A stretch of DNA of 64,000 bases from Pseudomonas sp. Os17 (GTDB taxonomy: Bacteria > Pseudomonadota > Gammaproteobacteria > Pseudomonadales > Pseudomonadaceae), in assembly GCF_001547895.1 (NCBI RefSeq), contig NZ_AP014627.1, forward strand, positions 871,501 to 935,500. Direction: 5' to 3'. Below, piece after piece: positions 16,034-32,326 of this stretch. Under the pieces are notes generated by a model that saw nothing but the letters and a program-made list of their open reading frames with translations, did not search any database and was not told the origin of the DNA. Positions within the stretch are counted from its first letter, which is position 1. Each line of letters starts with the position of its first letter. Made by a program: the position numbers and the translations under genes.

Positions 16034-16452
16034 AGCCCTTCATCATCAAGCAACAGCGCGACAGGTCCAGCTGCCGCGCCGTGCTTTCGTGGGGTGTTCT
16101 ACTTCAGCGTTGGCCTGTGGTGACTGCCATCGAGCAAGGCATCCACCACGGCCCGGGCCATCTTCACTGAGTGCACCTGATACCGGGGGAGTGATTATTG
16201 CTGGGCCATCTGCCTTGGCAATTTGGGCTTGCATGCATGTGGATGTATGCCCCTGGATAGCACCTAATCCCGGAATTTGTTCCCTCTGTTTATGGGCAAG
16301 ATCGACACCGCGGCATAGCGCTCTTGTCCGCTGATCTTGAGACGTACTCTGGCCAGCGTTAACAGACCCTGGCTCGGCCAGTCTGCGGGCTTGTAGATAC
16401 ATGGAAGGCTCGGCATTATGAGCTGCGTTTGACTGGGGCGACGGAGCCAAGA
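16034..16452. other. Gene-free interval at the left edge of the biosynthetic island
   Basis: About 420 bases with no convincing gene. A minus-strand frame (16046-16450) is open but has no domain. Part of another minus-strand frame near 16100-16180 (VHSVKMARAVVDALL) reads like protein but is bounded by stops, so it may be a decayed gene end. The promoter for the lasso genes starting at 16453 should lie in the right half. It is a plausible island boundary. Confidence 0.5.
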
Positions 16453-16737
16453 ATGAGCGATATCACGGGAGAGGCGACTGTCATCAGGAATGCCAGCGTG
16501 CTGGCAGCCGAAATCGGTGGAGAACTGGTGCTAATGAGCGTGTCCCAGTGGCATTACTTCGGCCTTAACTCCGTGGCCAGCGATATTTGGGAGCGACTCG
16601 CATCGCCTGTGCGTGTAGATACCTTGTGTGAGGCACTGGTAGCCGAGTATGACGCAGACATCCAGGTGATTCGCCAGGATGTCATGGAGTTGCTGAGCAA
16701 GCTGGTGAGTCGTGAGCTCATTGAGGTCCAGGCTTGA
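16453..16737 (+). CDS. PqqD family RRE protein (lasso peptide B1)
   Basis: This 94-residue protein is a stand-alone RiPP recognition element of the PqqD fold. The stretch GELVLMSVSQWHYFGLNSVASDIWERL is the typical core, followed by an alpha-helical C-terminus (YDADIQVIRQDVMELLSKLV). In lasso systems this protein binds the precursor leader through the conserved Tyr/Pro/Leu positions and hands it to the B2 protease. It is the first gene of a four-gene plus-strand operon; the next gene overlaps its stop by four bases. Confidence 0.85.
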   Translation: MSDITGEATVIRNASVLAAEIGGELVLMSVSQWHYFGLNSVASDIWERLASPVRVDTLCEALVAEYDADIQVIRQDVMELLSKLVSRELIEVQA

Positions 16738-17147
16738 TCAGCGCTCACCGTCTTCGTGTCATTGAAGCCGCCCTCTTTTTTTCGCTCACGCCTATCTTCT
16801 GCCGACTGTTTTCGTGGCGCCTTTTGCTGAGTTTGAGTGGCGCCCGCATTGAGCCGGCATCGTCTGATTTGAATCCCGCCTTGTCGCCCATGGCTCGTGC
16901 AGTGGGAGATGCGGTAGCCGTCGCGGCCAGGCGCCTTCCCTGGAAACCTCTTTGTCTGCGCCAAGCGTTGGTGGCGGCCTGCATGTTGCGCCTGCGGGGG
17001 AAGCGTTCCGTACTATGCCTGGGTGTACGCAGAGAAGGTGAATCTATAGGCGCACATGCATGGCTGGTGTTACCGGGGCAAGACGGTGGGATCGTTTGCG
17101 GGGCGGAGAATATTGGCAACGTTCGCGCTTTGCGGCGGCAAGACTAG
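16734..17147 (+). CDS. Lasso peptide biosynthesis B2 protein (leader peptidase)
   Basis: Starting at TTG 16734, which overlaps the TGA of the B1 gene, the protein is 137 residues. The C-terminal half has the transglutaminase-like protease signature: Cys in LCLRQALVAACML, His in IGAHAWLVLPGQ, with an acidic residue after it. In characterised lasso pathways this enzyme uses ATP-independent cysteine-protease chemistry to remove the leader once B1 delivers the precursor. The hydrophobic N-terminus (ALFFSLTPIFCRLFSW) is common in the family. Slightly short but apparently complete. Confidence 0.85.
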   Translation: MISAHRLRVIEAALFFSLTPIFCRLFSWRLLLSLSGARIEPASSDLNPALSPMARAVGDAVAVAARRLPWKPLCLRQALVAACMLRLRGKRSVLCLGVRREGESIGAHAWLVLPGQDGGIVCGAENIGNVRALRRQD

Positions 17148-17157
17148 GTGTCACACC

Positions 17158-18114
17158 ATGTATGACGATTACTCTCTTTGCGGCTGGCGTGTGCGCAGTG
17201 ATTTGCCGTTGCCGGAGCTACTGCCCTGGACAGGGGACCTACAGGCTCCGATAGACCTGAATATCGAACTTGGAGCAGTTGAGGCGCGACTGCTGGACCC
17301 TCAATACGAAGGTCCGGTTCTGCAAATGAGCACTGATGGAACCTGTCGTTTCACTATCGAGTCAGTTGCGACTTACCGAATAGCACACGATGGCCGTACG
17401 ATTCGGGTACAGCCCAGCCTCTCTGTGGATCTCCCCGCAGTAAGGACATTTTTGTTCGGTACCGTGTTTGCAATTGTTTGCCAGCGCCGTACCGTCTTAC
17501 CTTTGCATGCCTGTTGCGTGAAACTGCCTTCTCCCCAGGGGGATATTGCAGTTGCCTTCACGGCGCCTTCGGGAACAGGTAAATCGACCCTGGCATCTGC
17601 CTTCATGCGGCGGGGTTACCCGATTCTGGCAGACGATGTCACGGTGGTCAGCCTCGACCAGGAGCGAGGTGCCGTTGCGTTGCCCACCTTCCCCAGGGTC
17701 AAGCTCTGGCGGGATGCAATGAGCCAGTTTGGCCATGGCATGGGTGACGCAGAGCGTGTACGCCAGGATATGGACAAATTCTCCGTTGGCTTAGGGGCCG
17801 AGCACTTCGCCGTAGGCGCTCCTCTGAAGCTGGCAGCGTTGTACCACCTTGAGCGAGTCGAAGATGCCAGGCATGCAGGTCTGGAAGAGGTCGGCGGTTT
17901 ACCCGCTTCGGTTCGGTTCTCCAAGGCCCTGTATCAGGAGCGGATTCTCATGACGGTTGCCTCTGGTAAGGGCGCCCACTTCTCACTGGCAATGCGATTG
18001 GCGGCTGGCGTTGCGCGACATGTTCTGGTTCGACAGCTTTCTGGCTTTGAACATTTGGATGAACTTGTCCAGCGCATCGTCGCGTTTCACGCCGGGACGG
18101 CCCATCAGGCATGA
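17158..18114 (+). CDS. HPr-kinase-like lasso tailoring kinase
   Basis: The 318-residue protein has the HPr kinase C-terminal fold: LPLHACC (His117), Walker A APSGTGKST at 136-144, and ILADDVTVV with Asp159-160. Homologues encoded in lasso clusters, such as that of paeninodin, phosphorylate the hydroxyl of the C-terminal Ser of the precursor. The precursor here ends in Ser, which fits. The N-terminal 110 residues form a beta-rich region of unknown role. It starts ten bases after B2 and overlaps the sulfotransferase start by four bases (ATGA). Confidence 0.85.
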   Translation: MYDDYSLCGWRVRSDLPLPELLPWTGDLQAPIDLNIELGAVEARLLDPQYEGPVLQMSTDGTCRFTIESVATYRIAHDGRTIRVQPSLSVDLPAVRTFLFGTVFAIVCQRRTVLPLHACCVKLPSPQGDIAVAFTAPSGTGKSTLASAFMRRGYPILADDVTVVSLDQERGAVALPTFPRVKLWRDAMSQFGHGMGDAERVRQDMDKFSVGLGAEHFAVGAPLKLAALYHLERVEDARHAGLEEVGGLPASVRFSKALYQERILMTVASGKGAHFSLAMRLAAGVARHVLVRQLSGFEHLDELVQRIVAFHAGTAHQA

Positions 18115-18950
18115 GTGGCTTTTACTGGCTGGCGTCCTACCCCAAGTCTGGCAACACTTGGCTGCGCTTGGTCCTCAACAGTTATCGCCTCGGCGGATCG
18201 AAGCCAGACTTCTCGCAGAAGCAGAACTTCGCTCCTATCGCCAGCAGTCGTCGCCGCTTCGACGAGCTTCTGGGCGTCGCCTCGTCTGACTTGTTGCCTG
18301 ATGAGTTGTTGAGATTGCGTCCGCGCATGTATGAGCTGCAGGTGACAGAGGCCCGCGAACCTTTGTTCAACAAGGTGCATGACGCCTGGCAATTGACCCC
18401 TGGGGGGGAGCCACTGTTCCCGGCCACCAATACCCTGGGAGTGGTCTATATCGTGCGTGATCCTCGAGATGTGGTGTTGTCGCTGGCCGGGCACATCGGT
18501 TTCAGTGTGGATAGGGCGATCGACCTTCTCCTGGACGAGACAGCTATCCTGTGTGACCAAAAGCTCGGACTCATGGATCAGCTGCCGCAACGACTGGGGA
18601 GTTGGAGTCAGCATGTACTGAGCTGGATCGATCTGCCCGCGCCTTGGAGTCCTTTGCTCATTCGCTATGAAGACATGTTGGAGAAGCCCTGGGAAAGCTT
18701 TGCCTGTGTCATCAAATATTGTGGTTGGCCGTTAGATGACGAGCGCCTGGAGCAAGCCTTGGATGCCACTCGCTTCGACCGGCTGCAGGCTGCGGAGGCC
18801 AGCCATGGTTTCAGTGAGCGGCCGCAACGCGCCTCTCGCTTCTTCCGAGAGGGGCGTGCTGGAGGGTGGCGTGAGCGATTGAACGATGCGCAGCTACGCC
18901 GTATTGAAGAGGCCACCGAGTCGGTCAGAGCGCGCCTTGCTTATTGTTAG
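18111..18950 (+). CDS. PAPS-dependent sulfotransferase
   Basis: This 279-residue protein has the two PAPS-binding motifs of sulfotransferases: YPKSGNTW (residues 10-17, 5'-phosphosulfate loop) and VRDPRDVVLS (from 115, 3'-phosphate site). These enzymes move sulfate from PAPS to hydroxyl or amino groups. Its four-base overlap with the kinase gene places it in the lasso operon, making the peptide (Ser, Thr) a candidate acceptor, but an acceptor on the neighbouring polysaccharide is equally possible. Its end converges on the cyclase gene with a 31-base gap. Confidence 0.85.
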   Translation: MSGFYWLASYPKSGNTWLRLVLNSYRLGGSKPDFSQKQNFAPIASSRRRFDELLGVASSDLLPDELLRLRPRMYELQVTEAREPLFNKVHDAWQLTPGGEPLFPATNTLGVVYIVRDPRDVVLSLAGHIGFSVDRAIDLLLDETAILCDQKLGLMDQLPQRLGSWSQHVLSWIDLPAPWSPLLIRYEDMLEKPWESFACVIKYCGWPLDDERLEQALDATRFDRLQAAEASHGFSERPQRASRFFREGRAGGWRERLNDAQLRRIEEATESVRARLAYC

Positions 18951-18981: not shown

Positions 18982-20907
18982 TCAACCCTGGAACTGGCGG
19001 CCAGTTTCGATCCAACGCAGGAATGCGCCAAAATGAAGACCTCGGTGTAGAACGATCAGATGCTCAGGACTCGCTGGTCGGTTCGGCCAGTTCGAAAGGA
19101 GGGCCTTCATTCGTTTAAGGTCCAGCAGGCGTTGGGCCAGCGGGGAAGCCTCCAGCTCTTCGAGTCGTTCGCCGAGGAAAGGGCGCACCATACTCATTCG
19201 ATGAAGGTATTCAGGACATTGCATGCCGCGTTTGCGGTTGTTGACCACCTCGCCAGGCAGGCGATCCGCTGTGACTCGACGGGCGAGTAGACGAGTTACG
19301 CCACCTTGCAGGTAGAGGCTGTCGGGAAGTGAAAAGCAGAATTCCAGCAAGCGCCGATCAGCCATCGGATCGCGAACCTCGAAGCCATGCAGGGCACGTA
19401 CAAGTCCCGTTGCCTGTAACGCTGACTGGCGCTCCCGGAACCACGCCTGGCGTAGCTGCCAGCTAGCCATAGAAGCCATTTGCTTGCGCCGCTTGGCCCC
19501 CTCTTCGGTTCGAATGCGCGCCTTTATCATCGGGTCAATTGGATAGAGATGCCCCCACTCGGAAGCGCTCGACCTGGCTTGCAGTTTTGCTATTGACTGC
19601 TGAATGATCTCTGGCGCGAACGGGGCCAGGGTGGAGCGCCATATCTGGCGCGCAATGGCCGCGTTTTGTCCGCTCGTGCGGGCCAGGGCGAGTGATTCCT
19701 GAAAGGCCTTCAGCCAGCGGCCATCCCTCATCAAGCCAGTAAGGGTGCCCTGTCCATCCCAAGACAAAGTCACATTGCCGAGCGCTCCGGTCAGCAGTAC
19801 ACGCCCACCTTGCCGCCTTATGTGATCCCGGGCGGAGCCCATCCAGGCCAGGTTCATCACATTTCGCCAAGGGACGCCTGTCAGCTGGAACATCTGTAGC
19901 CAGTCGGTATCCCATCGATGCTGCACTGGCCCATTGAAAAACAGAGGCTGCAATCCGGGGGTCTGTTCGCAGATGCTCTCTACATAACGTCGCTCACTCA
20001 TGTAGTGCTGATTTGAATCCAGCAGCTCGGTGTTGGCGGCGGGCAGGCAGGTGATGGTGGTCAATGAGTTGCCTGGCAGGTGTTTCACGGCCGTCACCGA
20101 CACGGCGGAGGAGTCCAATCCTCCTGTGAGCGAGGAAAATGCCGGGCCTTCGATCCTCAGGCAGTCTTTGACCGCACGCTCGAACAATTCGCGTGCTGCC
20201 TCGACGTATTCCTCTTCTCTGGGCAAGCGGAGCTCGGTTCGTTGCTCAGGCGTCCAGTAGAAATGTTGCTTGAGTTGGCCCGAGCGCAGTATTGCCACCG
20301 AGCCTGCAGGTAGAAGTCGCAGATGCTTGTAAGGTGTGCCGTTGTCGGCCACGGGCAAGTCCGAGAGCAGGGCGACGAAGTGCTCTTCGTTTAGCTCGCG
20401 ATCGATGCCGGGAACGGCCAGTAGGGCTGCCGGGTTCGTGGCGAAAGCAAAGAGCCCGTCCTTCTGGTGATAGTACAAGGGGCGCTGACCAACTGCGTCA
20501 CGTGCGAGCAGTAGACTACGATCAGCAACATTCCACACCACTAGCGCAAAATCTCCGAGCATGCGCTCGGGACCGCGCGCTCCCCAGCGCGCCATTGCTT
20601 CAAAGGCAATGGCGCTGTCGGCCCAGCCATGTGCTTCCCTGGGTAGCGCCAGAGCGTCTATCAGCTCGATGCGATTAATCAGGTAACCGTCAAATACCAA
20701 CACCAGAGGGGCATCATGCCGAAGTGCGGGCTGATGATCCTGATGATCCTCCGGGGCTGTTATACGTAGACGATGGGTAAAGTGAAGGCCCGGGTGAGAC
20801 CAGTGACGGGGTTGCTCGAGCCCTGGCGCATCCAGTGCTGCTGCAAAATGCTCAGGTAGTTCCGTAGGGATGGCCTGAGCGGAAAGCAGACCGGCAAATG
20901 CGCTCAT
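18982..20907 (-). CDS. Lasso peptide macrolactam synthetase (asparagine-synthetase-like, C)
   Basis: The 641-residue protein has an N-terminal class II amidotransferase-like domain (FDGYLINRIELIDAL, LGDFALVVWN, LLLARDAVGQRPLYY) and a C-terminal synthetase domain with the PP-loop SSLTGGLDSS at 258-267. The amidotransferase lacks the catalytic N-terminal Cys: the protein begins MSAFAGLL, not MCG. It should therefore not hydrolyse glutamine, as in known lasso cyclases, which adenylate an Asp/Glu side chain and close the ring with the core N-terminus. The precursor gene lies 37 bases upstream on the same strand. A second AsnB at 35892 keeps Cys2. Confidence 0.88.
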   Translation of the reverse strand: MSAFAGLLSAQAIPTELPEHFAAALDAPGLEQPRHWSHPGLHFTHRLRITAPEDHQDHQPALRHDAPLVLVFDGYLINRIELIDALALPREAHGWADSAIAFEAMARWGARGPERMLGDFALVVWNVADRSLLLARDAVGQRPLYYHQKDGLFAFATNPAALLAVPGIDRELNEEHFVALLSDLPVADNGTPYKHLRLLPAGSVAILRSGQLKQHFYWTPEQRTELRLPREEEYVEAARELFERAVKDCLRIEGPAFSSLTGGLDSSAVSVTAVKHLPGNSLTTITCLPAANTELLDSNQHYMSERRYVESICEQTPGLQPLFFNGPVQHRWDTDWLQMFQLTGVPWRNVMNLAWMGSARDHIRRQGGRVLLTGALGNVTLSWDGQGTLTGLMRDGRWLKAFQESLALARTSGQNAAIARQIWRSTLAPFAPEIIQQSIAKLQARSSASEWGHLYPIDPMIKARIRTEEGAKRRKQMASMASWQLRQAWFRERQSALQATGLVRALHGFEVRDPMADRRLLEFCFSLPDSLYLQGGVTRLLARRVTADRLPGEVVNNRKRGMQCPEYLHRMSMVRPFLGERLEELEASPLAQRLLDLKRMKALLSNWPNRPASPEHLIVLHRGLHFGAFLRWIETGRQFQG

Positions 20908-20944: not shown

Positions 20945-21103
20945 TCAGGAGACGTTCGAAAAGCCAACCGTGCCGTCATTGCCGCTTGTGGCGAAAATAG
21001 AGGTGGTCACATCCGATATGGAGACTTCAACGATTTCTGGCTTCTCCCAGGCTTTACGTTGGGACTCGGTTTCGTTGGATTCATTAGTGTCTTGTTCGGC
21101 CAT
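20945..21103 (-). CDS. Lasso peptide precursor (52 residues)
   Basis: A small gene on the minus strand, with AGGAG eight bases before ATG 21103. The leader has Trp19, Pro22, Ile24, Ser28 and Thr34, matching the lasso leader spacing Y-x2-P-x-L-x3-G-x5-T with conservative changes. Cutting two residues after Thr34 gives the core IFATSGNDGTVGFSNVS (17 residues); Asp43 is then core position 8, suitable for an Ile1-Asp8 ring, leaving a nine-residue tail. The last residue is Ser, fitting the HPr-kinase-like enzyme. Ile at position 1 is unusual; a Ser35 start with a nine-residue ring is the alternative. It precedes the cyclase gene by 37 bases. Confidence 0.8.
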   Translation of the reverse strand: MAEQDTNESNETESQRKAWEKPEIVEVSISDVTTSIFATSGNDGTVGFSNVS

Positions 21104-21171: not shown

Positions 21172-21921
21172 CTAAGGTTTTGCCGAGTAACAGACAGGCT
21201 CAGGGTACAAAGGTCTGCCCTGGGTGAATTTCTTGTAGCTTTCGTCACCCAACTGATAGGCAACCTGCATCCAGTTCATCATCGTCAGCGTGTGCTGCTT
21301 CGGCTTTGGCGGAGCAGGCTGACGCAGTCGCTTCAGCAACTCCAACTCGGCGGCGGCGAGATCATCGCTGAAGGTGAATTCGCTTGAAGGGCCGCAATGG
21401 ACCTCATATTCGGAGCAGCCACGCTTTATGCTGACCGAGACGCTGGCGCCAAGCTCAGGTGTATCGAGTACTTTCTCAAGTACCTGCTGGTAAGCTTCGC
21501 GGGCATTCTGCAGTCCATCCAGATGGAACAGGACTCGGTAGGGACCGGCCTGGTAGCGTGCATTCAGGCTGGCGCCGGCCTTGTAGGCATAGGGTAGGTC
21601 ATGCGCGATCTTCTGGGTCGCAATCAGCTGTTCCAAGTTGGCTGGGCGTATCTGGACCTTGAAGCAGTGGCGGCAGCCTACCGGGACGGCCGCTCGACCG
21701 TAGGCCTGACGGAACAGGAAGCCCAGGAGCTTCCCGCAGGGGAATGGTGTGCGGATGGGACCAACTACCCAGGTTTCATTCAATTGGACAGGACGCGACA
21801 GTTCCCAGGTGTCATCTTCATGCAGAACTACATCGCCTCTTTCGCGTGCGATCAGGAGATTTTGCCCAATAGTGGACTTACCCAATTTGAGGTTCAGAAA
21901 GTCCGTGCTGGTGGTGGTCAA
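21172..21921 (-). CDS. Unknown protein with Cys-rich centre, upstream of the lasso precursor
   Basis: The best start is TTG 21921, nine bases after GGAG, giving 249 residues. No family was recognised. It has Cys in TPFPCGKLLG, a CxxC-type VGCRHCFKVQIRP, and two more Cys in IKRGCSEYEVHCG, a set that could bind zinc or an Fe-S cluster. No signal peptide or membrane segment is present. It is the first gene of the minus-strand run that continues with the precursor (69-base gap) and the cyclase, so a role in making or modifying the lasso peptide is possible. Confidence 0.65.
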   Translation of the reverse strand: MTTTSTDFLNLKLGKSTIGQNLLIARERGDVVLHEDDTWELSRPVQLNETWVVGPIRTPFPCGKLLGFLFRQAYGRAAVPVGCRHCFKVQIRPANLEQLIATQKIAHDLPYAYKAGASLNARYQAGPYRVLFHLDGLQNAREAYQQVLEKVLDTPELGASVSVSIKRGCSEYEVHCGPSSEFTFSDDLAAAELELLKRLRQPAPPKPKQHTLTMMNWMQVAYQLGDESYKKFTQGRPLYPEPVCYSAKP

Positions 21922-21987: not shown

Positions 21988-22719
21988 ATGAGGAGTCTTT
22001 GGTTGTTTCACGAATGGGTGCGTTTCTTGGTGCAGGTTTTGCGCGGCGGTGAACGACGGAGTTCTGCACTCCTGATGCGACGGCGTCCACAAGGCTTGTT
22101 TCAGCCATACGGCACGACGCGAGAAGATCGCTACCCCGAGTTGTTCCAGTCAATTCGCCAGGTACTGGCAGACACTCCGCAAACGCGCCTCCTATCGTTC
22201 GGCTGCTCTACCGGCGAGGAAGTGTTCAGCCTGGCCCGCTATTTTCGACAGGCCCATATCCGTGGCGTGGATATCGATGCGGGCCGTATTAGCCGGTGCC
22301 GGGCGCGATGGCAGCGTGAGGGGCGAGAGCCCCGCCTGAGCTTCTTATGTGCAGGTGACGTTGCGCTGGAAACGACCGCCAGCTATGACCTGGTGATGGC
22401 GATGGCCGTCTTCCGCCATGGCGCGTTGGGCGAGAGCCCCACCGACTGTTCTGCCTGGATTCGCTTCGCTGACTTTGATCGCGTGCTTGGCGACCTGGCC
22501 AGGGTGCTCAAGCCGGGTGGTTTGCTGGTGATCCGCCACGCCAACTTCCGTCTCGGCGACACGGGCGCGGCGGGTCTGTTCGAGTGCCTGCACGGCGAGG
22601 CGGCGCAGGCTTCGCCGATCTATGGACGGGACGACCGCTTGCTGCCCGGCGTACCGGGGGACGACGGCATCTACCGCAAGCGACCAGCGCCCCTTGCCTC
22701 ATCGAACATGACGCGCTAG
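21988..22719 (+). CDS. Class I SAM-dependent methyltransferase
   Basis: This 243-residue protein has motif I LLSFGCSTGEEVFSLA, as in CheR-like enzymes, an acidic VDIDAG after beta-2, and VLKPGGLLVIRHAN at motif III. It is divergent from the cysteine-rich protein gene with 66 bases between them, and convergent with wecB. The substrate may be the peptide or a sugar of the adjacent glycan. The N-terminal 35 residues are basic and may be a membrane-near helix. Confidence 0.75.
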   Translation: MRSLWLFHEWVRFLVQVLRGGERRSSALLMRRRPQGLFQPYGTTREDRYPELFQSIRQVLADTPQTRLLSFGCSTGEEVFSLARYFRQAHIRGVDIDAGRISRCRARWQREGREPRLSFLCAGDVALETTASYDLVMAMAVFRHGALGESPTDCSAWIRFADFDRVLGDLARVLKPGGLLVIRHANFRLGDTGAAGLFECLHGEAAQASPIYGRDDRLLPGVPGDDGIYRKRPAPLASSNMTR

Positions 22720-22770: not shown

Positions 22771-23865
22771 TTATGCCCGGCGTGTGCCGAAGTCATCTCG
22801 CAACACCTGCAAAATCCGTTGCCAGGCCTGACCGTCGCCAAATGGATTGCTCCAGGTAACGCTTGAATGACGCAGTTCATCTGCAGCATCGATCAAACTG
22901 TTTTGCGTCACCACGGGCGCCAGTCTGGAGCCCCCGCTGTCCAGGCTTTCCGGGCGCTCGGTATTGGCTCGCAGCACCAGGCAGCGGCGCTGCAGCACGC
23001 AGGCCTCCTCCTGCAGGCCGCCACTGTCGGTCAGTACCAGATCGGCGCCTTGTAGCAAGGCCAGCATGTCGATATAGCCAAGGGGATCTGTGGTCTTTAC
23101 AGGCGACGAGCTGTCGATGATTTTCCAGTGCTCCCGGCCCAGCCGTGGGTGGACGGGGAAAATCACTGGCCTGTTGCGCGCTTCAGCCAAGCGCTGAACG
23201 GCTTCGATCAGTCTGGCGAAATGCGCGATGTCGTCGGTATTGGAAGGCCGGTGACAGGTCAGCAGCAGGTAGTCTTCGGCTTGCACCCCCAGCCTTTCCA
23301 GGATTCCCGAGCGTGCCCGGGAGCTGTGCACATAGCGCAGGGTGGCATCGATGCCGGTGTTGCCCGTGATATGCACATTGGCGCCGTGGATGCCCTCATT
23401 GGCCAGTAGCTCGACCTGCAATGCCGAGGGGCAGAACCAGAAGTCGGACATGTGGTCCAGCTGGATTCGATTGGTTTCTTCCGGCATAGATTTGTCGAAA
23501 CTGCGTAAACCAGCCTCGACATGGGCAATCGGGATATCAGCCTGGCGCGCAGCGAGCCCTCCGGCCAACGAGCTGTTGGTGTCGCCCTGGACAATCACAT
23601 AGTCCGGCCTAACGGCCTGCAGTACCGGTTCGATTCCCATGACCATGCGCGCCACTTGCGAGCCCGCGACATCAGACCCCACCCCTAGATTGAAATGCGC
23701 GAGAGGCAGCTCGAGTTCGTCGAAGAACAGCTTGTCCATGGCCGCGGCGTAGTGCTGGTTGGTGTGGATCAACGTATAGCGGATACCTTGCCGAATGCAG
23801 GCACTAATCAGCGAGGAAAGCTTGATGATTTCGGGGCGCGTGCCCAGTACAAAGGCTAGATGCAT
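22771..23865 (-). CDS. wecB: UDP-N-acetylglucosamine 2-epimerase (non-hydrolysing)
   Basis: From MHLAFVLGTRPEIIKLSSLI at 23865 the protein is 364 residues. It has the family signatures LGTRPEIIK, PIAHVEAGLRSFD, MPEETNRIQLDHMSD, the HRPSNTDD segment and DSGGLQEEAC. The enzyme interconverts UDP-GlcNAc and UDP-ManNAc. It is the last gene of a four-gene minus-strand operon and overlaps the ABC exporter gene by ten bases. A WecG-type transferase at 39997 could use the UDP-ManNAc. Confidence 0.92.
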   Translation of the reverse strand: MHLAFVLGTRPEIIKLSSLISACIRQGIRYTLIHTNQHYAAAMDKLFFDELELPLAHFNLGVGSDVAGSQVARMVMGIEPVLQAVRPDYVIVQGDTNSSLAGGLAARQADIPIAHVEAGLRSFDKSMPEETNRIQLDHMSDFWFCPSALQVELLANEGIHGANVHITGNTGIDATLRYVHSSRARSGILERLGVQAEDYLLLTCHRPSNTDDIAHFARLIEAVQRLAEARNRPVIFPVHPRLGREHWKIIDSSSPVKTTDPLGYIDMLALLQGADLVLTDSGGLQEEACVLQRRCLVLRANTERPESLDSGGSRLAPVVTQNSLIDAADELRHSSVTWSNPFGDGQAWQRILQVLRDDFGTRRA

Positions 23866-25640
23866 GAGTGGGAACGCCCTGCAAAATCGATAGTCGGCTC
23901 CGGCTCGGGCGGACAAATGAAGTCCTTGAGCGCGCCGTCGACCATCAGCACGTTACGGTCGGTATGGCGCAAAGCGGTGAGGCGATGGGTGATCAGCACC
24001 ACGGCAAGCTCGGGCCTTGCGGCGCGCAGGGCTTGCAGAAAGCGGCTCTCGCTCAGTTGGTCCAGGGCTGCCGTGGCCTCGTCCAGAACCACCAGCACCT
24101 GGGCGTGGGCAACCGCGCGAGCAAGCCCGATGCGTTGCCGCTCGCCGCTCGATAGCTGTTGCTCGAAGGCCTCCACCGGAGTGTCCAGGCCTTGGGGAAG
24201 GCGGTTCAGCAGGGCGTCGACACCGGTGATGGCCAGTGCGTCGTTGAGCGTCTGCTCTGCACCGGAACCCAGAAAGGCCACGTTGTCGCGCAGCGTGCCT
24301 GGAATCAGCGTGGTGCCGGAGGAGGCGTAACCGATGGCCCGGTGCTCCGCTGGCAGGTCGAGCCATTGCAGCGTGCCCTGGTTTGGCTGCAGCTCACCAA
24401 TCAGAACATCCACCAATGTCGATTTGCCCACGCCCGACTCGCCGACCAGACCCAGCCACTCCCCTTGGCCGATGCTCAGGTTCAGGTTGTGGATCACTGC
24501 CTGGCTGGCCTGGGGGTACCGGTACTCCAGTGCCTCGCACAGCAGCACTGGCTGGAGTGGGGTGCGAGCAGGTGCCATGTGCTGCTGGACGGCCTCCGGG
24601 GCTGTTCGGGAGGGCGAGTCGGGCGAGGTCAACTCCTCAAAATACGGGCGGGACAAGCGCAGCGTCTGCAGGCTGAACAGCACCCGCCGAAAACCTGGCA
24701 GCAAACGCAAGCCCACGGCTGAAAACAAGGCCATTGCATGCAGGTCCGTTTGCCCGCTTCCCTTGCTGGCTACCAGTACGCACAGCACCAGCATCATCAG
24801 GAAAAACAGCTCCATGACGGGGGACTGGACCTCCATCAGCGTGCGTTCCCGGGCCGTGGCTTTGGCGAAGCGTTTGGCCACTGGGTAATAGCGCTCCAGT
24901 ACCGCCTGCACGCGGCCATACAGGTGTATCTCGCGCAGGCAGGCAATGCTGTCTGTGACCCAGCGCTGCATCAGCACCTGGCTTTCGCCCCTGCGCGTTT
25001 CCCTGATGTCGTTGAGCACCACAGACAAGGCGCCGCCAGCGCCGGCGGCCAGCAGCAACGCACCGAGCAGCATCGCCGTCGCCAGGGGCTCCAGAGCCAA
25101 CAACACACAGAGCAGCAGAGCGACCACCAATACTTCGGTGAGCAGCTCCAGGCTGGGCAGGAGGGTGCCTATGACGATTCTGGGCGCCATGTAGTTGACA
25201 ACCACATTGCTGCCCTGCGCGGTTGTGTTTGAGAGCTGGGCAACGGGGCGGTCCAGTTCGTGCTGGAAAATGCTCAACGAGATCATCAGTGTCCAGGCGT
25301 CGATCAGCCGGCTGCGCGCGGCAGACAGCAGCGGCGCCAGCACGCCCTTGCCCAGCACCAGGGCCACCACCAGCAGGGGCAGCGCGGATACGCCGCTACC
25401 GGCGAACGCTGACCACTGCATTTCGAGCTGCGCATACCAACCGGAGGAGGTACGCACCGTCGGTAGCAGCGAGCCCAACAGGATCGCCACCAGCAGCGCA
25501 CAGAGCGTATCGATGGCGGCCTTGCCCAGCAGCAGCGCCAGCATCGACACAATGCTGGACGTGCTGGCGCCACAGCGTCTGACGAAGGCCAGTGCCCGCG
25601 GTGGAAGGTCGAACAGTGCAAAGGGTTTCACAAGTTTCAT
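23856..25640 (-). CDS. ABC exporter, fused membrane and ATPase domains (lasso D candidate)
   Basis: The 594-residue protein has a six-helix membrane domain (about 25-330) and an ATPase domain with Walker A GESGVGKST (400-408), signature LSSGERQR and Walker B VLVVLDEATAALD. There is no N-terminal C39 peptidase domain, as in McjD-type lasso exporters, where the leader is removed by B2. It is a half-transporter expected to dimerise. It sits between a glycosyltransferase fusion (four-base ATGA overlap) and wecB (ten-base overlap), so it could export a peptide, a glycan or a conjugate. Confidence 0.85.
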   Translation of the reverse strand: MKLVKPFALFDLPPRALAFVRRCGASTSSIVSMLALLLGKAAIDTLCALLVAILLGSLLPTVRTSSGWYAQLEMQWSAFAGSGVSALPLLVVALVLGKGVLAPLLSAARSRLIDAWTLMISLSIFQHELDRPVAQLSNTTAQGSNVVVNYMAPRIVIGTLLPSLELLTEVLVVALLLCVLLALEPLATAMLLGALLLAAGAGGALSVVLNDIRETRRGESQVLMQRWVTDSIACLREIHLYGRVQAVLERYYPVAKRFAKATARERTLMEVQSPVMELFFLMMLVLCVLVASKGSGQTDLHAMALFSAVGLRLLPGFRRVLFSLQTLRLSRPYFEELTSPDSPSRTAPEAVQQHMAPARTPLQPVLLCEALEYRYPQASQAVIHNLNLSIGQGEWLGLVGESGVGKSTLVDVLIGELQPNQGTLQWLDLPAEHRAIGYASSGTTLIPGTLRDNVAFLGSGAEQTLNDALAITGVDALLNRLPQGLDTPVEAFEQQLSSGERQRIGLARAVAHAQVLVVLDEATAALDQLSESRFLQALRAARPELAVVLITHRLTALRHTDRNVLMVDGALKDFICPPEPEPTIDFAGRSHSCI

Positions 25641-27388
25641 GGGCCTACGGCGATCAAGGATTTGGGCAAGCCCAGGATTCGTTCGCGGATGATACGGGCA
25701 GTGGGAAACAAAACCTGCATCTGCCGACGGGTCAGCAGGCGGACGCTATCGACGAGAAACTCGGCCTGTTCGTGGTTCGCGGCGCGTTGCCAGTGCCCCA
25801 GTGCCACTTGGCGTACCAGTCCGACCCTGAGGCGACGCGGCAGCCAGTGAAAAAAAGGCGTCATGCAGTGCGGTTCGAGTGGAAACCAGAAATCCGGTGT
25901 CTGGATAAAGTAGCGTTCGGCGACGCGCACAAGCTCCCGGGCAAAACGTTCGACACGCTCCGGACTGCCCACATGCTCGATCACGGAGTTGGAATGCACG
26001 ATATGGAAGGCACCGTTCTCGAACTGGCTCAGGTCACAGCCATCAGCGCACAGTGCACTGAAGGGGGACAGGGGGGGCTGATGTACGGGCTGAGTGTTGA
26101 GCAGCGTGATGGATACACGGCGTGAGGCCAGGTAGGTCGCCGGCAAAATTTTCCAGTATTTTTGTGTCCCTCCCACATCCAGCAAATTGACATGGCCATG
26201 CCGGGCGTATGCCTGCTCGATCATGTCCCGCAGTGGCCCGATACGCCGGCTGCGCAGCCGCGTAGCGAGCGCGCGCGGGTTGTCGTAGTTGGTCAAATAG
26301 CGCGCCAGCCTTTTCATCCAACCGGTAGGCCGCGATCGCTGCATGGCCTGCTGGTAGAAGGTCACCAGCTCGGCGGCTTTGCGCTGCCAGGTGAAGCCTT
26401 GGCGAACGGCCTCTACCACACTGGCCGGTACTTGGCTTTGTGCGCATTGTGCGGCACACGCGCCCAGGGCCGGGATGTCGCCCAGGGCGAACACGCCGTT
26501 CCAGCCGACGGCGTCGGTGATGGCACGGCACCCCTCGATATCCGAGCAGACAATGGGCACACCGGCCAGCAACGCCTCGAGGATGACCGTCGGCATGCCT
26601 TCGCGTTCGGAAGCCAGCACCATTGTCTTGCAGCTGGCCATCATCTGTTGGGTAACGGCATCGTCCTGCCAGCCATGAAAGCGCACCCGCGAGGACAGAC
26701 CCCACTGTGCCGTCAGGGCTTCCAGGCGTGGGCGGTCACTGCCCTGACCGACGATGTGCAGAATGGCCTGGGCCAGGGGGGGCGTCTTCAGCGCAGCAAT
26801 CACATCGTCGAGGCGTTTGACCGGATCTAGACGCCCGATGGACAGCAAGGCGGGCGCCCCCTCCAGCGGCACCGAACTGGCGACGGCAGGTTGACGGTGA
26901 TCATCAATACAGTTGGGAATGATCAGGATCCGCGTGGGCTGCAAGCCGCGCCGGTCAAGGTCGGCCTCCCAGCCCTTGTGCAGCAGCACCACGGCGCTGG
27001 CGGCGCGCACCATCAGGCGCTCGACGGTGCAGTCCCACAGGCGCTTGAGCAGTCGTCGCCACCTGGAGCCCGTGTCGTAGTAACAGTGCGGGGTGTACAC
27101 CAGGGGCCGGCCACGGACGACGGCCAGCAGTGCGGCGAATGCGGCAATTGGGGTCCGGGCGCCATGCACATGCACGAGGTCATGCTCGGCCATGGCGGAC
27201 CAGAGGCTTCGATGCCCCCCCTGGCGTACGTCGAGCCCGTCGCCGGCCACATTGACCTGCGGGGCAAGGATGGTGATGCGGGTGCTGTCATCGGCCTGTA
27301 TGGCCGTGGCCAGCCCCTGGATATGACGGGCCACGCCACTGGACAGGGGGTCGAACTCCTTGCTGACATGCAGTACCCGTATCTTCAT
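25637..27388 (-). CDS. Fused GT4 glycosyltransferase and SAM methyltransferase
   Basis: From MKIRVLHVSKEFDPLSSGVA at 27388 the protein is 583 residues. Residues 1-360 form a GT-B family 4 glycosyltransferase (VHVHGARTPIAAF, SIGRLDPVKRLDDVI, LASEREGMPTVILEALLAGV with the E-x7-E motif). From about 395 a methyltransferase-like domain follows (NLLDVGGTQKYWKIL, FHIVHSNSVIEHVG). No stop separates the two and the linker is short, so it is a genuine fusion in this sequence. Each end overlaps a neighbour by four bases (ATGA). Confidence 0.8.
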   Translation of the reverse strand: MKIRVLHVSKEFDPLSSGVARHIQGLATAIQADDSTRITILAPQVNVAGDGLDVRQGGHRSLWSAMAEHDLVHVHGARTPIAAFAALLAVVRGRPLVYTPHCYYDTGSRWRRLLKRLWDCTVERLMVRAASAVVLLHKGWEADLDRRGLQPTRILIIPNCIDDHRQPAVASSVPLEGAPALLSIGRLDPVKRLDDVIAALKTPPLAQAILHIVGQGSDRPRLEALTAQWGLSSRVRFHGWQDDAVTQQMMASCKTMVLASEREGMPTVILEALLAGVPIVCSDIEGCRAITDAVGWNGVFALGDIPALGACAAQCAQSQVPASVVEAVRQGFTWQRKAAELVTFYQQAMQRSRPTGWMKRLARYLTNYDNPRALATRLRSRRIGPLRDMIEQAYARHGHVNLLDVGGTQKYWKILPATYLASRRVSITLLNTQPVHQPPLSPFSALCADGCDLSQFENGAFHIVHSNSVIEHVGSPERVERFARELVRVAERYFIQTPDFWFPLEPHCMTPFFHWLPRRLRVGLVRQVALGHWQRAANHEQAEFLVDSVRLLTRRQMQVLFPTARIIRERILGLPKSLIAVGP

Positions 27389-28683
27389 GCCACGGACTCC
27401 AGCGTTGCCGGCTGCTGGAGCTGTTGCAGCAAGCCGGCGAGCCCGCTGGTTTGCCTGGCAAAGTGGCTGCGCAACCATTGGGCCTGGGCCTGTCCGGTGG
27501 CCTGGCGAAAGGCCGGGTCATCGCGCAGACGCTGATAGAGGCCGGCCACTTGCTTGGCTGTCGCGGCCTGTAAAGGCGCCGCCATTGCCTGGCGTACCGC
27601 CCGGTTTCCAGGCAAGGCCAACTGCAACGCCACCACCCAATGCCCGGCCAGCGCCGCCTCCAGCATGGCGGTGGAGCAGTAGCCCACCACCAGCTGCGGT
27701 ATGGCGGCCCGGGGTTGTAGCTCCGGGTGCGGTGGACGGCGAGTGGCGCATGCGGCCGCACCGCTGTAGGGCTGGTCTTCCTGAGGGTGCAGCAGAATGC
27801 GTGTATCCGGGGCGATTTGCAGCAGCGCGTGGGCAAAGGTCGCCAGGGTTTCGCCAATGCCCTCGCCCAGTATCCGGGCATGGGTCTGCGAGAGCAGGGC
27901 AATGCCCTCAGGGGCACGCGCAGCCTGCTCCGGCTGCTGACCCCGGCCCAATGCGTCCTCTACCAGTTGCGTGCTCGGGGTGCCATTGGCCTCGAACACC
28001 TGACGGCTGGCGTTTCCCCATACCAAGTAGCAGTCGGCCCGGGTCGGGAAGAACTCATCCGTGGCAATGCCGTGTTGCACGCAGATGCTGGGCAGCCCCT
28101 GGCCAATCGCGGCGCGGCTCATTAGATCGAAATCGTTGTGCAACAGCACGACGCCTCGGCTGCCTGTCAGGGTCCGCCGCAGGCTGGCGGTCCAGAGCGC
28201 GCGGCGGGCCAGGCAACTGGCGAGCAGCAGCGGCTGCTGTTGCCTCAGCGTGGCGATGAACACGTACAAGGCCGAGCGCCACGCCTGCAGGCCTGGTCGC
28301 GCGGGGCGGATGCAGGTCAGACCTGGGGAGATATCATCGATGGCCAGGCGCGGGTGCAACAGCACCAGCGGCGCATAGCCCGCCGCTGCCAGGGCGGGCA
28401 GTGCCCGCTCCAGGGTGCTCCAGCCACTCACGCCAGCCAGGGTGGTCAACAAGATGGCTTGCTTGTGCCCTTGCACGTTGAGGCCAGGGTTCTTGTGCCT
28501 GAGCAATAGCCAGGAATCACGCAGCAGGGCCCCCAGGGCGCGGACTCCGGCCGCGACCTGGCTTCTTCCTGCGTGTAGATAGAACAGCTCATGGCGAACA
28601 TCTGCCGCATCCGGGCCGAACTGCTGGCGTATGTATTCGACGTGCTCCGAGAAAGATTCTCGTAGCCAGGCGGATGACTTCAT
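27385..28683 (-). CDS. Probable GT-B glycosyltransferase (capsule/polysialyl type)
   Basis: From MKSSAWLRESFSEHVEYIRQ at 28683 the product is 432 residues. GVVLLHNDFDLMSRAAIGQG, then SICVQHGIATDEFFP (the QHG motif of polysaccharide-type GT-B enzymes), VWGNASRQVFEANG and VVGYCSTAMLEAALAG support a GT-B fold, but the sugar is unknown. It is the first gene of the minus-strand operon GT, GT-MT, ABC exporter, wecB. The ribosome-binding site is weak. Confidence 0.6.
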   Translation of the reverse strand: MKSSAWLRESFSEHVEYIRQQFGPDAADVRHELFYLHAGRSQVAAGVRALGALLRDSWLLLRHKNPGLNVQGHKQAILLTTLAGVSGWSTLERALPALAAAGYAPLVLLHPRLAIDDISPGLTCIRPARPGLQAWRSALYVFIATLRQQQPLLLASCLARRALWTASLRRTLTGSRGVVLLHNDFDLMSRAAIGQGLPSICVQHGIATDEFFPTRADCYLVWGNASRQVFEANGTPSTQLVEDALGRGQQPEQAARAPEGIALLSQTHARILGEGIGETLATFAHALLQIAPDTRILLHPQEDQPYSGAAACATRRPPHPELQPRAAIPQLVVGYCSTAMLEAALAGHWVVALQLALPGNRAVRQAMAAPLQAATAKQVAGLYQRLRDDPAFRQATGQAQAQWLRSHFARQTSGLAGLLQQLQQPATLESVA

Positions 28684-28787
28684 GGGGTAAGATCCGATTT
28701 CTCTTATGCCAGCCACGCTACAGCTAGGCAGTTGAGTTGCCAACCACCATCAGCCGCTTGTCTAGTGCATAGGATGCACGCCCCGTT

Positions 28788-29948
28788 ATGGCCATATCCC
28801 ATTCTCAATGTACCGCCAGCGCTTCCGGGCAGAACGCCGATGACTTCCATGGAGATCATGTCGAACTGCTGCAGGCAACCTTGTGGTTGATGGGTTTTGA
28901 GCAGCCGTTCAGCGCTCCCGCCGTGCCCGCCCTTTGCCAGTTCATCCGTCACCATGGGGTGGCGGGCCTGATGCAGCCCGACAGGGTAAAAAGCCAAGCC
29001 CCCGTTTGCTTGGCAGCGCTGAATGCCGAACGCCAGCGCATTGCCATTCGGGCCCTGGCACTGGGGGCCGGGCTCAAGCGCCTGGTCACGGGATTTGCCG
29101 CGCGAGGTCTGCAGCCGTTGGCGCTCAAAGGGCCGGCGCTGGCCGTGCAGGCCTACGGCAATCTCGGCGCACGGGGTGGTGTGGACCTGGATGTACTGCT
29201 GCCGACGGAACAGTGGCCCGAGGCCCTGGCCGTATTGCAGGACATGGGCTATCACGTGGCTCCTGGCCAACAGTGGCCCCTGCCCGATGCCACCCATGAA
29301 CTGGTGCTCGCTCACGGGCAGCTGCCGCGGATCGAGCTGCACCGCCGCCTTCTGCGTCACCAGCATTTGCTCCACGCCCCGCAGCGAATGACCCAGGTGC
29401 TCGACCTGCAAGGTACCGAGGTGACCTGCCTGGCGCCGGCCTATGCGCTGCCGTATTTGATTGCCCACGCCAACCAGCACTGCTTCCGCCGCTTGATCTG
29501 GCTGATGGATATACACGCGCTGTTGCAGTGCCCCGACCTGGACCTTGAGCTGCTCGCCAGCCAGGTAAAGCGCAGCGGCACCTGCGCGATGCTGGATACC
29601 TGCCTCAGCCTGCTGACCCTGCTGTTCGGCCTGCAGGTTCCGGCGCCTCTGCAGCAGGTGCGCCGACCTTGCCGGGCAAGTCGGGAGATGGTCGAGCTGG
29701 CACTGGATGCGCTGCGCAGGTCTCTTAGCGATGACCAGGTGGCGATGGGCCAAGGTCTGTTCAAACGCGTGAGCCTGGACATTGCCTTGCAGGACACGCT
29801 GGCGGCCCGTTGGCAGGCGCTGGTGGGCTGGCTGAGCCCCACGGCAAAGGACCTCCAGTGGCTGGCACTGCCGCGCGGGCTGAGCTTTCTCTATCCGTTC
29901 GTGCGCCTTTTGCGGCTGGCGCTGCGCCAGCGGGGGCACGAAGTTTGA
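28788..29948 (+). CDS. Nucleotidyltransferase family protein (NTP_transf_5)
   Basis: The 386-residue protein has the pol-beta-like motif LKGPALAVQAYGNLGARGGVDLDVLLP, with the paired acidic residues DLD that bind metal. Proteins of this family recur beside HPr-kinase-like and lasso biosynthesis genes and beside exopolysaccharide genes. Their reaction is not established; transfer of a nucleotide to a peptide or glycan is assumed. It is divergent from the 28683 glycosyltransferase gene (104-base gap). Its TGA overlaps the TTG start of the next gene. Confidence 0.8.
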   Translation: MAISHSQCTASASGQNADDFHGDHVELLQATLWLMGFEQPFSAPAVPALCQFIRHHGVAGLMQPDRVKSQAPVCLAALNAERQRIAIRALALGAGLKRLVTGFAARGLQPLALKGPALAVQAYGNLGARGGVDLDVLLPTEQWPEALAVLQDMGYHVAPGQQWPLPDATHELVLAHGQLPRIELHRRLLRHQHLLHAPQRMTQVLDLQGTEVTCLAPAYALPYLIAHANQHCFRRLIWLMDIHALLQCPDLDLELLASQVKRSGTCAMLDTCLSLLTLLFGLQVPAPLQQVRRPCRASREMVELALDALRRSLSDDQVAMGQGLFKRVSLDIALQDTLAARWQALVGWLSPTAKDLQWLALPRGLSFLYPFVRLLRLALRQRGHEV

Positions 29949-31249
29949 CTCTTGCCATTCCGCTCTCTCGTTTATTGGTTCGTGGCCTGGGCGTTGCCGC
30001 CAGTGCCTTGTCGGCAGGTTGGGTCGTCGAGTCCGGGGTTCCCTGGCCTGGCACCTGGGGCCTGGCATTGGCGGCCGCGCTGCAGTTCATGGGGCTGGAC
30101 TGGGCACTGATACGTCCCCGCCATCGCCTGGCCGAACGCCTGGCTACCGGGATCGGGCAACTGCTTCTGGGATTGGGCGTGCTGGCCTGTCTGGCGGGGC
30201 TGTTCGGCTATTCGTTATCGGTGTCGTGGTCGCTGGGCTGGCTGCTGTTGGCCAGTGTCACGCTTGCCCTGCTCGAGGTGGGCAATGATCGGGTCGCAGC
30301 CTGGCGTCCCGGCGTGCCCAGGGTCGTGCTGGCGGGCGCTTGTCCACATGTCAGTCAGTTCACGGAACAGCTTGGGCAGTCCGCCGTTCGCTTGTCGCAT
30401 GAAGAGGCCCTGGGCCTGCTGACGCAGCAGCCAAGCCGGCAGCTGTCAGAACAGGTGGTGATTTTCGATACCTGCCTGCACGCAACGCCGCCCCAGCATC
30501 TGGAAGGCGGGTGCCCCACGCTGCCCATACAGGATGTGCATGCTTTTTCGCCTGGAGCTGCGGCGGCCAAGCGCTTGTTCGATCTACTCGTCGCGGCCGT
30601 ACTGCTCTGCGGCTGTGCGCCGCTGCTGGTGGTCATCGGGCTGATCGTTCGCCTGCAGGACGGCGGGCCGGCGCTGTTTCGTCAGCAGCGCCTGGGTTTG
30701 CAGGGCTCGATCATTACCGTGCTGAAGTTTCGCAGCATGCGGGTGGCCGCTGGTAGTGACCTGCTGGCGCCCCAGGCGCGCCTCGATGACCCGCGTGTCA
30801 CGCCGCTCGGCAAGTGGATGCGTTACTGGGGCATTGATGAGCTACCACAGCTGATCAACGTGTTGCGCGGTGATATGTCCCTGGTCGGCCCACGGCCCCA
30901 TGCGGTCGCTCATGACCTGCATTATGGCGCCAAGGTCTGTGGTTACACCGCGCGGCAAGCCGCCAGGCCCGGTATCACCGGGCTTGCCCAGATCCGTGGT
31001 CGGCGTGGGGAAACCCGCGCCGTATCCGATATGGCCTCACGGGTGCGCGATGACCTCGAATACATTGCGCGCCAGTCGCTGTGGCTGGACCTGTTTATTC
31101 TGCTGGCCACACCGATGGCGCTGTTGCGCAGCGGCCATGGGCGCTGTGAGCCTGAGCGTGTAGCGGTCTCGGCCCCCTCTAGAGACGAGCAAGCCGCCAC
31201 GCCATCCGCGGATAGCCGTTACGCAGACTCAGAGGCCGAATCTGTTTGA
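29945..31249 (+). CDS. Initiating polyprenyl-phosphate sugar transferase (WcaJ/WbaP type)
   Basis: A TTG start at 29945 overlaps the upstream stop and gives 434 residues; no other start fits the gap. About five hydrophobic helices precede the catalytic domain from about residue 215: KRLFDLLVAAVLLC, LKFRSMRV, GIDELPQLINVLRGDMSLVGPRP, and ARPGITGLAQIRGRRGET. These enzymes move sugar-1-phosphate to undecaprenyl phosphate and start repeat-unit assembly. Its last 71 bases overlap the convergent methyltransferase gene, an unusual arrangement. Confidence 0.9.
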   Translation: MTLAIPLSRLLVRGLGVAASALSAGWVVESGVPWPGTWGLALAAALQFMGLDWALIRPRHRLAERLATGIGQLLLGLGVLACLAGLFGYSLSVSWSLGWLLLASVTLALLEVGNDRVAAWRPGVPRVVLAGACPHVSQFTEQLGQSAVRLSHEEALGLLTQQPSRQLSEQVVIFDTCLHATPPQHLEGGCPTLPIQDVHAFSPGAAAAKRLFDLLVAAVLLCGCAPLLVVIGLIVRLQDGGPALFRQQRLGLQGSIITVLKFRSMRVAAGSDLLAPQARLDDPRVTPLGKWMRYWGIDELPQLINVLRGDMSLVGPRPHAVAHDLHYGAKVCGYTARQAARPGITGLAQIRGRRGETRAVSDMASRVRDDLEYIARQSLWLDLFILLATPMALLRSGHGRCEPERVAVSAPSRDEQAATPSADSRYADSEAESV

Positions 31250-32111
31250 GGATGTGAGCTCGGATGTCGTTCGCCTGCGGTGGTAGTGGCGCGACGGTAG
31301 GTGTCGCCGGTGCGTTGAGCCGCGCATACACGCGCAGATTGCCTTCGTAGATTCCGTGGGCTTCCCGGCGCCAGTGCTGGGCATGAAACCCATTGGCGCT
31401 CAACAATGCCTCAAGGGTTTGCGCCGAGAAATAGCTGCGGTGCGAAACATGCACCTGCAACAGGCCAAGCTCGGGCCAGTCAGCCTCGATATCCGGGACC
31501 TCGATCACCAGCCAGCCCTGCGGATCCATCAGCTTGGCTATCCGAGCCAGTGCTTTGCCCGGCTCCTGAAGATGCTCCAAGACATGGAACAATGTCACCA
31601 GCCGAGGTGCGAAAGGCAGTTGCGTGTGTTCGTCGAGCTCTTCAGGGCGAACGTGTTCGCCCAAGCCCAGCACCTGTACCGCATGATCGCGCTGAGGGCC
31701 GCCTGGCTCCAGGCCCATATAGTGTTCATAGTTTTGGGCGCGACAGGCATCCAGGAAAAACCCCAGGCCGGCACCGATATCCAGCACCGATTGGCATTGA
31801 CCTACAACGGCGCTGATCTCGCTAAAGCGATAGCCTGCGAGCAGCCGATAGTTCCACATCGCTTTGCTGGCTGGTGGTTGTCGCATGAGGCGGGGGTATA
31901 GCTGGCTGTAGAAGCGTGCCTGGGTGTCGCCCTTCAGGCCACGCGCCAGATAAACCAGGCTGCAATGGCGGCAGGTCGACAGATTGACTCGCAGAAAATA
32001 ACGGTCATATCGCCAGATAAGCTGTGGATCGTTTTGCCCGCAGCCAGGGCAGGGAAGCTCGACCAGATGTCGATTGATCTGGCGAAGCTGATTGAGCAGA
32101 GAAAATGCCAT
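31179..32111 (-). CDS. SAM methyltransferase with N-terminal zinc-ribbon-like Cys pairs
   Basis: The 310-residue protein has CPGC (residues 21-24) and CRHC (about 47-50) pairs, then a methyltransferase core (SVLDIGAGLGFFLDAC, LVTLFHVLEHLQEPGKAL, DPQGWLVIEVPDIE). Proteins with this layout commonly methylate sugars of surface glycans. The C-terminal 24 residues are encoded opposite the end of the sugar transferase gene. A similar two-part methyltransferase lies at 37726. Confidence 0.8.
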   Translation of the reverse strand: MAFSLLNQLRQINRHLVELPCPGCGQNDPQLIWRYDRYFLRVNLSTCRHCSLVYLARGLKGDTQARFYSQLYPRLMRQPPASKAMWNYRLLAGYRFSEISAVVGQCQSVLDIGAGLGFFLDACRAQNYEHYMGLEPGGPQRDHAVQVLGLGEHVRPEELDEHTQLPFAPRLVTLFHVLEHLQEPGKALARIAKLMDPQGWLVIEVPDIEADWPELGLLQVHVSHRSYFSAQTLEALLSANGFHAQHWRREAHGIYEGNLRVYARLNAPATPTVAPLPPQANDIRAHILKQIRPLSLRNGYPRMAWRLARL

Positions 32112-32326
32112 CTATGCCTGTTCCCGCATTGAATCGAAGGAGTCCGTAAAAGAGGCAGCACTCTAGCAGTCCGCAAGACGATGGTAACGACCTGTCTCTA
32201 TTCATTGGCCGTTCCAAACACGGTCAGCGCATTGCAGCAGCCTGGTCGCTGTGTCAAATTCTCGCACTTTGCCCCGTGACTAGCAGACCACCTTCACGTT
32301 TGTGCAGGCAGGCCCATCAGGTTGGA

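Follow-up and report, generated by a model that had tools for sequence, protein, structure and literature searches.

A Pseudomonas lasso peptide precursor with a probable nine-residue ring and the association of its kinase/sulfotransferase cluster with an exopolysaccharide locus

We analysed a stretch of 64,000 nucleotides from Pseudomonas sp. Os17 (hereafter the window) and found that the minus-strand gene at 20945-21103 encodes, judging by its sequence and its relatives, a genuine lasso precursor that is ordinary in kind. The gene belongs to a lasso-type set A-B1-B2-C-kinase-sulfotransferase, and a lasso cluster having both a kinase and a sulfotransferase is uncommon. The proposal taken as a whole, namely a lasso precursor with a core starting at Ser35, a nine-residue ring, a phosphate on Ser52 and a further sulfotransferase step, seems to us reasonably probable from the sequences compared. 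Within the genus, clusters of this type lie near one particular exopolysaccharide locus. The lasso genes of the window are the following.

16429..16737, plus strand: B1, the RiPP recognition element, of the PqqD family (102 aa; PF05402, E 2.8e-18).
16734..17147, plus strand: B2 leader protease, transglutaminase-like (NF033537, 65 bits, over the cut-off of 33).
17056..18114, plus strand: HprK-like kinase with His151, Lys176 and Asp193-Asp194 (HprK models sub-threshold).
18111..18950, plus strand: PAPS-type sulfotransferase (PF00685, E 1.2e-24) with the phosphosulfate loop YPKSGNTW.
18982..20907, minus strand: putative lasso cyclase C (641 aa), of the Asn synthase family and without Cys2.
20945..21103, minus strand: lasso precursor A (52 aa), with putative leader 1-34, putative core 35-52 SIFATSGNDGTVGFSNVS, a predicted isopeptide Ser35-Asp43 and the C-terminal Ser52.

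The 52 codons of the precursor gene translate to MAEQDTNESNETESQRKAWEKPEIVEVSISDVTTSIFATSGNDGTVGFSNVS, in which Trp19, Pro22, Ile24, Ser28, Thr34 and Asp43 are all present. Between its stop codon and the cyclase ATG (at 20907) there is a gap of 37 bases (20908-20944). The coordinates and the MSAF start of the cyclase agree with the first-pass annotation, which described a 52-residue minus-strand gene 37 bases ahead of a Cys-less cyclase, and its call of a lasso precursor was borne out by homologues, conserved residues and a lasso-type gene neighbourhood. A search of a large protein set returned 12 homologous small proteins, all of them 52 aa long and 71-90% identical to the window precursor (best E 1.2e-22); the two that are named come from Pseudomonas. 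In the alignment of these 12 with the window precursor, Trp19, Pro22, Ser28, Thr33, Ser35, Asp43 and Ser52 are invariant (13 of 13 rows), position 24 is occupied by Ile, Leu or Val, position 36 by Ile (12 rows) or Thr (one row), and residue 34 is Thr in the window only and Ser in the other 12 rows. Homologous precursors had been proposed as a check, and we found that they recur beside the related cyclases of three loci (L numbers denote loci and G numbers genomes): L011 (cyclase 92% identical; precursor ...DVTSSIYATSGND), L017 (Pseudomonas sp. HMWF032, 63-64%; ...DVTASIFATSGND) and L018 (Rhizobiales, 46-47%; ...DVTASIYATSGND). Trp19, Pro22, Thr33, Ser35, Asp43 and Ser52 are also kept in these three precursors. 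The 12 homologues and the recurrence beside the three cyclases place the open reading frame far above chance. Among the residues named at first, Trp19, Pro22, Ser28 and Asp43 proved to be invariant and position 24 stayed hydrophobic, but Thr34 was not kept, as it is Ser or Ala in the relatives. Over the 16 distinct precursors (the 13 aligned and those of L011, L017 and L018), residue 34 is Thr in 1, Ser in 13 and Ala in 2, whereas Thr33 and Ser35 are found in 16 of 16.

The last leader residue (-1) of lasso precursors is free to vary. At the penultimate position of the leader, Thr is almost universal according to PMC10368454 (like the other papers cited here, available in extract). Since Thr33 and Ser35 are unvarying and residue 34 is variable in the 16 precursors, we place Thr33 at -2, the free residue 34 at -1 and Ser35 first in the core. 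Based on this comparison, we are fairly confident that the core runs from Ser35 to Ser52 with a nine-residue ring; Asp43 would close a ring of 9 from Ser35 and of 8 from Ile36. The Ser35 start with a nine-residue ring had been offered by the first-pass annotation as an alternative, and it is now preferred because Thr33 and Ser35 do not vary and the spacing between the leader Pro and Thr33 is 11. The assignment put first in that annotation, with Thr34 at -2 and Ile at position 1, is the less likely of the two given that residue 34 is Ser or Ala in homologues, and the placing of Ile at the start of the core probably reflects a misjudged boundary.

The spacing was surveyed in 31 precursors typed by hand from the loci, 27 of which lie outside the window's own family. 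Among the 27, the spacing from Pro to Thr(-2) is 10 in 8, 11 in 5 and 12 in 14; in the window precursor it is 11 if counted to Thr33 and 12 if counted to Thr34. The 12 listed precursors from clusters having both kinase and sulfotransferase show a spacing of 10 (8 precursors) or 11 (4 precursors) and never 12. Among listed precursors, a spacing of 12 is confined to Halomonas-type loci and to L024 and L050, none of them with a sulfotransferase match. The possible ring size is only eight in 24 of the 27 and eight or nine in the other 3. By hand count, the G051 precursor has a spacing of 11 and a nine-residue ring to Glu, and the possible L040 precursor, which lies beside a partial sulfotransferase and outside the survey, has a spacing of 11. 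Since the survey accepted Thr alone at -2 and used a hand-picked list, it should be taken as support and not as proof. Further precursors of L021, L022, L023, L025, L027, L033 and L034 were omitted from the list, and so were actual or possible precursors of L011, L029, L035, L038, L039, L040, L042, L045, L046, L053 and L057. The search behind the L013 precursors retained only open reading frames with a terminal Ser or Thr, and L026, L036, L043 and L051, which bear a sulfotransferase, yielded no convincing precursor.

A core that begins at Ile36, with an eight-residue ring Ile36-Asp43 and Thr, Ser or Ala at -2, has to be weighed against the Ser35 start. With Ile36 first, the spacing from Trp19 fits the placing of the YxxPxL motif at -17 to -12 given in extracts of PMC10368454, and rings of eight residues prevail among the listed relatives. 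A Pseudomonas precursor of L013 (15468-15686) is a cleaner case of Ile1, as it has Thr-Arg and then INASTGNDG, a core similar to that of the window; its INASTGND aligns with IFATSGND of the window as though Ile were position 1. However, with an Ile36 start 15 of the 16 precursors would have to carry Ser or Ala instead of Thr at -2, right beside a Thr33 that never varies, and the spacing would be 12, a value missing from all 12 listed precursors of kinase and sulfotransferase clusters. We consider the Ile36 start rather unlikely and keep Ser35 as the preferred first residue. It is very unlikely that the small open reading frame is a PqqA-like or other non-lasso RiPP precursor: it passes no Pfam or NCBIfam model and has one sub-threshold PqqA match (E 0.03), but a lasso-type cyclase and a B2 protease adjoin it and recur with the precursor, and an Asp is present at ring distance.

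The first-pass annotation had pointed out that Ile at position 1 would be uncommon. A rare first residue is not special: metanodin reportedly has Asn1 (PMC12670498, in extract), and relatives are predicted to start with Ile, Asn, Phe, Thr, Gln, His, Ala, Ser or Gly. The Pseudomonas genome G013 has two cyclases and four lasso precursors (L013, 10467-15686), with predicted starts at Ile, Asn, Ser and Ala. Halomonas-type precursors of L020 (10021-10179) and L022 (10019-10177) have Gln and His as predicted first residues. The position-1 residues Ile, Phe, His, Gln and Thr in relatives would be worth testing, and the preferred core alters which product mass to look for: the calculated [M+H]+ is 1741.80 with Ser35 first and 1654.77 with Ile36 first. 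A phosphate would add 79.9663 to this and a sulfate 79.9568, values about 9.5 mDa apart.

The best NCBIfam match of the cyclase is the lasso-cyclase model NF033535 (E 1.9e-79), at 268 bits against a curated cut-off of 525. This shortfall, like that of the HprK models for the kinase, counts against the proposed mechanism; the gene neighbourhood favours a lasso cyclase. The protein starts with MSAF and thus has no Cys2, which is a feature of its glutaminase-active relatives. B1 scores below the cut-off of the lasso PqqD models. In B2, Cys74 and His108 are near-invariant over 8 rows, near-invariant meaning here that at most one of the rows with a letter differs. The kinase open reading frame overlaps B2, so its true start may be later. 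His151, Lys176, Asp193 and Asp194 of the kinase are near-invariant in a 14-row alignment, as is the SGxGKS loop, and the kinase residues match the ones that extracts of PMC10368454 give for BsfK. The loop [Y/F]PKSGNTW is kept across 12 sulfotransferase rows. When 46 loci were searched with the window proteins, 17 had a sulfotransferase match; L012 and L017 refer to one and the same site, and the match in L040 is partial.

In the mechanism that we propose, B1 would bind the WxxPxI motif of the leader, and B2 would cleave after residue 34, leaving Thr33 as the penultimate leader residue. The cyclase would then link the Ser35 amine to the Asp43 side chain, giving a nine-residue ring with the tail GTVGFSNVS threaded. 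The HprK-like kinase would phosphorylate the C-terminal Ser52, probably on the linear precursor, and the sulfotransferase would attach another group, either to the peptide itself or to a substituent that it carries; the window core is without Tyr. According to PMC8498205 and PMC9266682 (in extract), the target of paeninodin-type kinases is the C-terminal Ser of the still linear precursor. Since BsfK phosphorylates Ser3 and not the last residue (PMC10368454, in extract), Ser52 is not certain as the phosphate site. The earlier suggestion of a phosphate or sulfate on the core thus holds at the level of gene content, namely the kinase and sulfotransferase motifs and the invariant Ser52.

Upstream of the precursor, the window continues with the following features.

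21172..21921, minus strand: U249, uncharacterised, upstream of the precursor and with five invariant Cys.
21988..22719, plus strand: methyltransferase adjoining the lasso genes, kept in L011 and L017 and, more weakly and elsewhere, in L018.
22771..42011 (.): exopolysaccharide locus with epimerases (UDP-GlcNAc 2-epimerase, NAD-epimerase), an ABC protein, glycosyltransferases, a sugar transferase, AsnB, WecG, Wzy_C and several unknowns.
23856..25640, minus strand: ABC exporter-like protein, a candidate exporter of the lasso peptide or of a glycan.

U249 passes no family model of Pfam or NCBIfam and is found in 8 of the 46 loci mentioned above. Its Cys61, Cys82, Cys85, Cys168 and Cys175 are invariant in a family of 26 aligned sequences. 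The AlphaFold model of U249 is confident and has no confident match among solved structures. In the Rhizobiales locus L018 (5637-7402) there are two U249 copies with a recognised precursor between them. At the right edge of the sugar locus, the window at 42183-43402 has a tmRNA gene and a low-G+C open reading frame matching part of DUF3987, an arrangement like that of an island boundary.

In a set of 298 genomes of the genus, the cyclase and the Wzy protein (both at E 1e-60) were found in the same six genomes (G000, G013, G054, G138, G153 and G193). The chance of this overlap would be 1e-12 if the genomes were independent and 5e-11 with G000 and G138 merged, and the genomes are not independent. 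Exopolysaccharide genes are mostly 50-79% identical, gene by gene, in G013, G054, G153 and G193, with lower identities (28-45%) for ABC, unk454, unk481 and unk464; for the lasso genes, identity to the window is 26-44% in G013, G054 and G193. We used unk563 (38325-40016) as the marker for the exopolysaccharide locus and found it in 7 of 224 genus genomes, which are the six above and G051. A kinase/sulfotransferase lasso cyclase lies 3-22 kb from unk563 in all seven (distances here and to the sugar transferases below were computed by hand from coordinates), with lasso genes as low as 26-45% identical, and the relative order of lasso and sugar genes varies among the seven genomes. In G051, an assembly with 9% contamination, matches to B2, the kinase, the sulfotransferase, B1 and the cyclase (26%) lie near the exopolysaccharide locus; unk563 and the sulfotransferase are both split into two matches there, and these two genes may be decayed. 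B2 above the cut-off was found in 9 genus genomes. The remaining two are G036 and G073, in which unk563 is absent and the 19 kb fetched have no kinase or sulfotransferase match. Weaker Asn-synthase matches near sugar transferases elsewhere (e.g. G312, G322 and G323) were not counted as lasso loci, and they indicate that enzymes of this type are common in sugar loci.

Beyond Pseudomonas, 14 of 40 genomes, among them those of the 9 Halomonas-type loci (L019-L023, L025, L027, L033 and L034), have a PF02397 sugar transferase and a lasso cyclase within 13 kb of each other on one contig. In the remaining 26, some with short contigs, no such proximity was observed; G013, G054, G193 and G332 (the genome of L017) belong to this group. 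A related cyclase (50%) is also present in Lacibacterium aquatile. In the Halomonas locus L023, an epimerase, a UDP-sugar dehydrogenase and an ATP-grasp protein of sugar transfer are among the neighbours. The same cluster has a PF14907 nucleotidyltransferase (3693-4892) beside an ABC transporter, which recalls pseudomycoidin-type clusters. We looked for unk563 in 15 genomes and found it in the Rhizobiales genome G298 alone, whose lasso core differs from that of the window at two residues. Its sugar locus (NAD-epimerase 59%, AsnB 57%, WecG 60%, unk563 44%) occupies 134-153 kb of a 236-kb contig, and its lasso genes are on a separate 35-kb contig. With a G+C of 0.66-0.69 on both contigs there is no sign of contamination, and as this is one genome, the co-occurrence on separate contigs is suggestive only. 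The marker is absent from the alphaproteobacterial genomes G308, G310, G316 and G331, all with kinase/sulfotransferase lasso clusters, so the link between lasso and sugar genes is not general. It is also absent from the Halomonas-type genomes G303, G305 and G313 (Halomonadaceae). In an order-level sample of 390 genomes, a Wzy match without the cyclase (E 1e-50) was found in G666 (same genus, 51%), G339 and G493 (32-33%), and four genomes had the cyclase and no such Wzy. In G666, the Wzy gene is not surrounded by the other genes of the sugar locus.

The lasso cluster may well be cargo, sharing islands with the exopolysaccharide locus with no common function, in which case the peptide would be a free antimicrobial; we give this something close to an even chance. 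Co-transfer of this kind is a serious rival because of tmRNA and tRNA neighbours as for genomic islands and the lower G+C of the lasso genes: a tmRNA gene flanks the locus in the window, G013 and G153 each have a tRNA gene no more than about 10 kb from the lasso locus, and G+C is 0.50-0.59 in lasso genes and 0.59-0.66 in sugar genes. The absence of unk563 from 4 of 5 alphaproteobacterial genomes with such lasso clusters and from the three Halomonadaceae genomes points in the same direction, and few of the genomes are independent. On the other hand, gene order changes between genomes and yet lasso and sugar genes stay together, and G298, with a near-identical core, has both gene sets on separate contigs. 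More tentatively, it is possible that a surface-polysaccharide system includes the kinase/sulfotransferase lasso peptide as a functional component. The phosphorylated C-terminal Ser, perhaps further sulfated or glycosylated, would then tie the peptide to a specific exopolysaccharide or let it control that exopolysaccharide.

Clusters of the paeninodin type (PadeK, ThcoK, SyanK and PsmK), as described in extracts of the literature, have in common with the window the cyclase, B2, an HprK-like kinase and a C-terminal Ser as the expected phosphate site. The window adds the sulfotransferase and U249, has its own core sequence, and shows no nucleotidyltransferase match among its proteins scanned with Pfam. 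That lasso clusters can contain kinase and sulfotransferase genes has been on record since 2014 (PMC4289311), and a later review describes this for Firmicutes (PMC8498205), both in extract. These Firmicute clusters with HPr kinase and sulfotransferase have the same two extra enzymes as the window, whereas the window belongs to Pseudomonadota, U249 is present in a subset of the clusters, and the association with one exopolysaccharide locus could be counted. Paeninodin-like clusters of Bacilli in capsule loci (PMC13381572, in extract) are, like that of the window, kinase-bearing lasso clusters amid polysaccharide genes; here the phylum is another, no SpI/LPP partner system was seen, and one genome has both gene sets on separate contigs. 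BsfA of Bradymonas (PMC10368454, in extract) is a kinase-type precursor whose leader/core boundary had to be worked out, as in the window, and unlike the window precursor it has Ile(-2), Gly1 and a phosphorylated Ser3. In the available part of a halotolerance study (PMC10040529), lasso B2, PqqD, AsnB, sulfotransferases and a glycosyltransferase are among the clusters co-occurring with salt tolerance. Among the matches listed there were neither sulfated lasso peptides nor a link between lasso peptides and polysaccharide in Pseudomonas, most subscription journals being outside the scope of the search. The 2026 Bacilli paper (PMC13381572, in extract) describes the role of paeninodin-like lasso peptides as unknown, with biofilm only speculated.

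The Pseudomonas association extends the published Bacilli pattern of lasso clusters in capsule loci. If true, a polysaccharide role would explain both the divergent lasso cassettes at the same Pseudomonas sugar locus and the finding, in G298, of a near-identical core along with these sugar genes on separate contigs. With a second phylum, a countable association and a genome having the two gene sets apart, such a role can be put to a direct test by deleting genes. What merits follow-up is the association with a single polysaccharide locus, which may hint at the role of phosphate-tagged lasso peptides.
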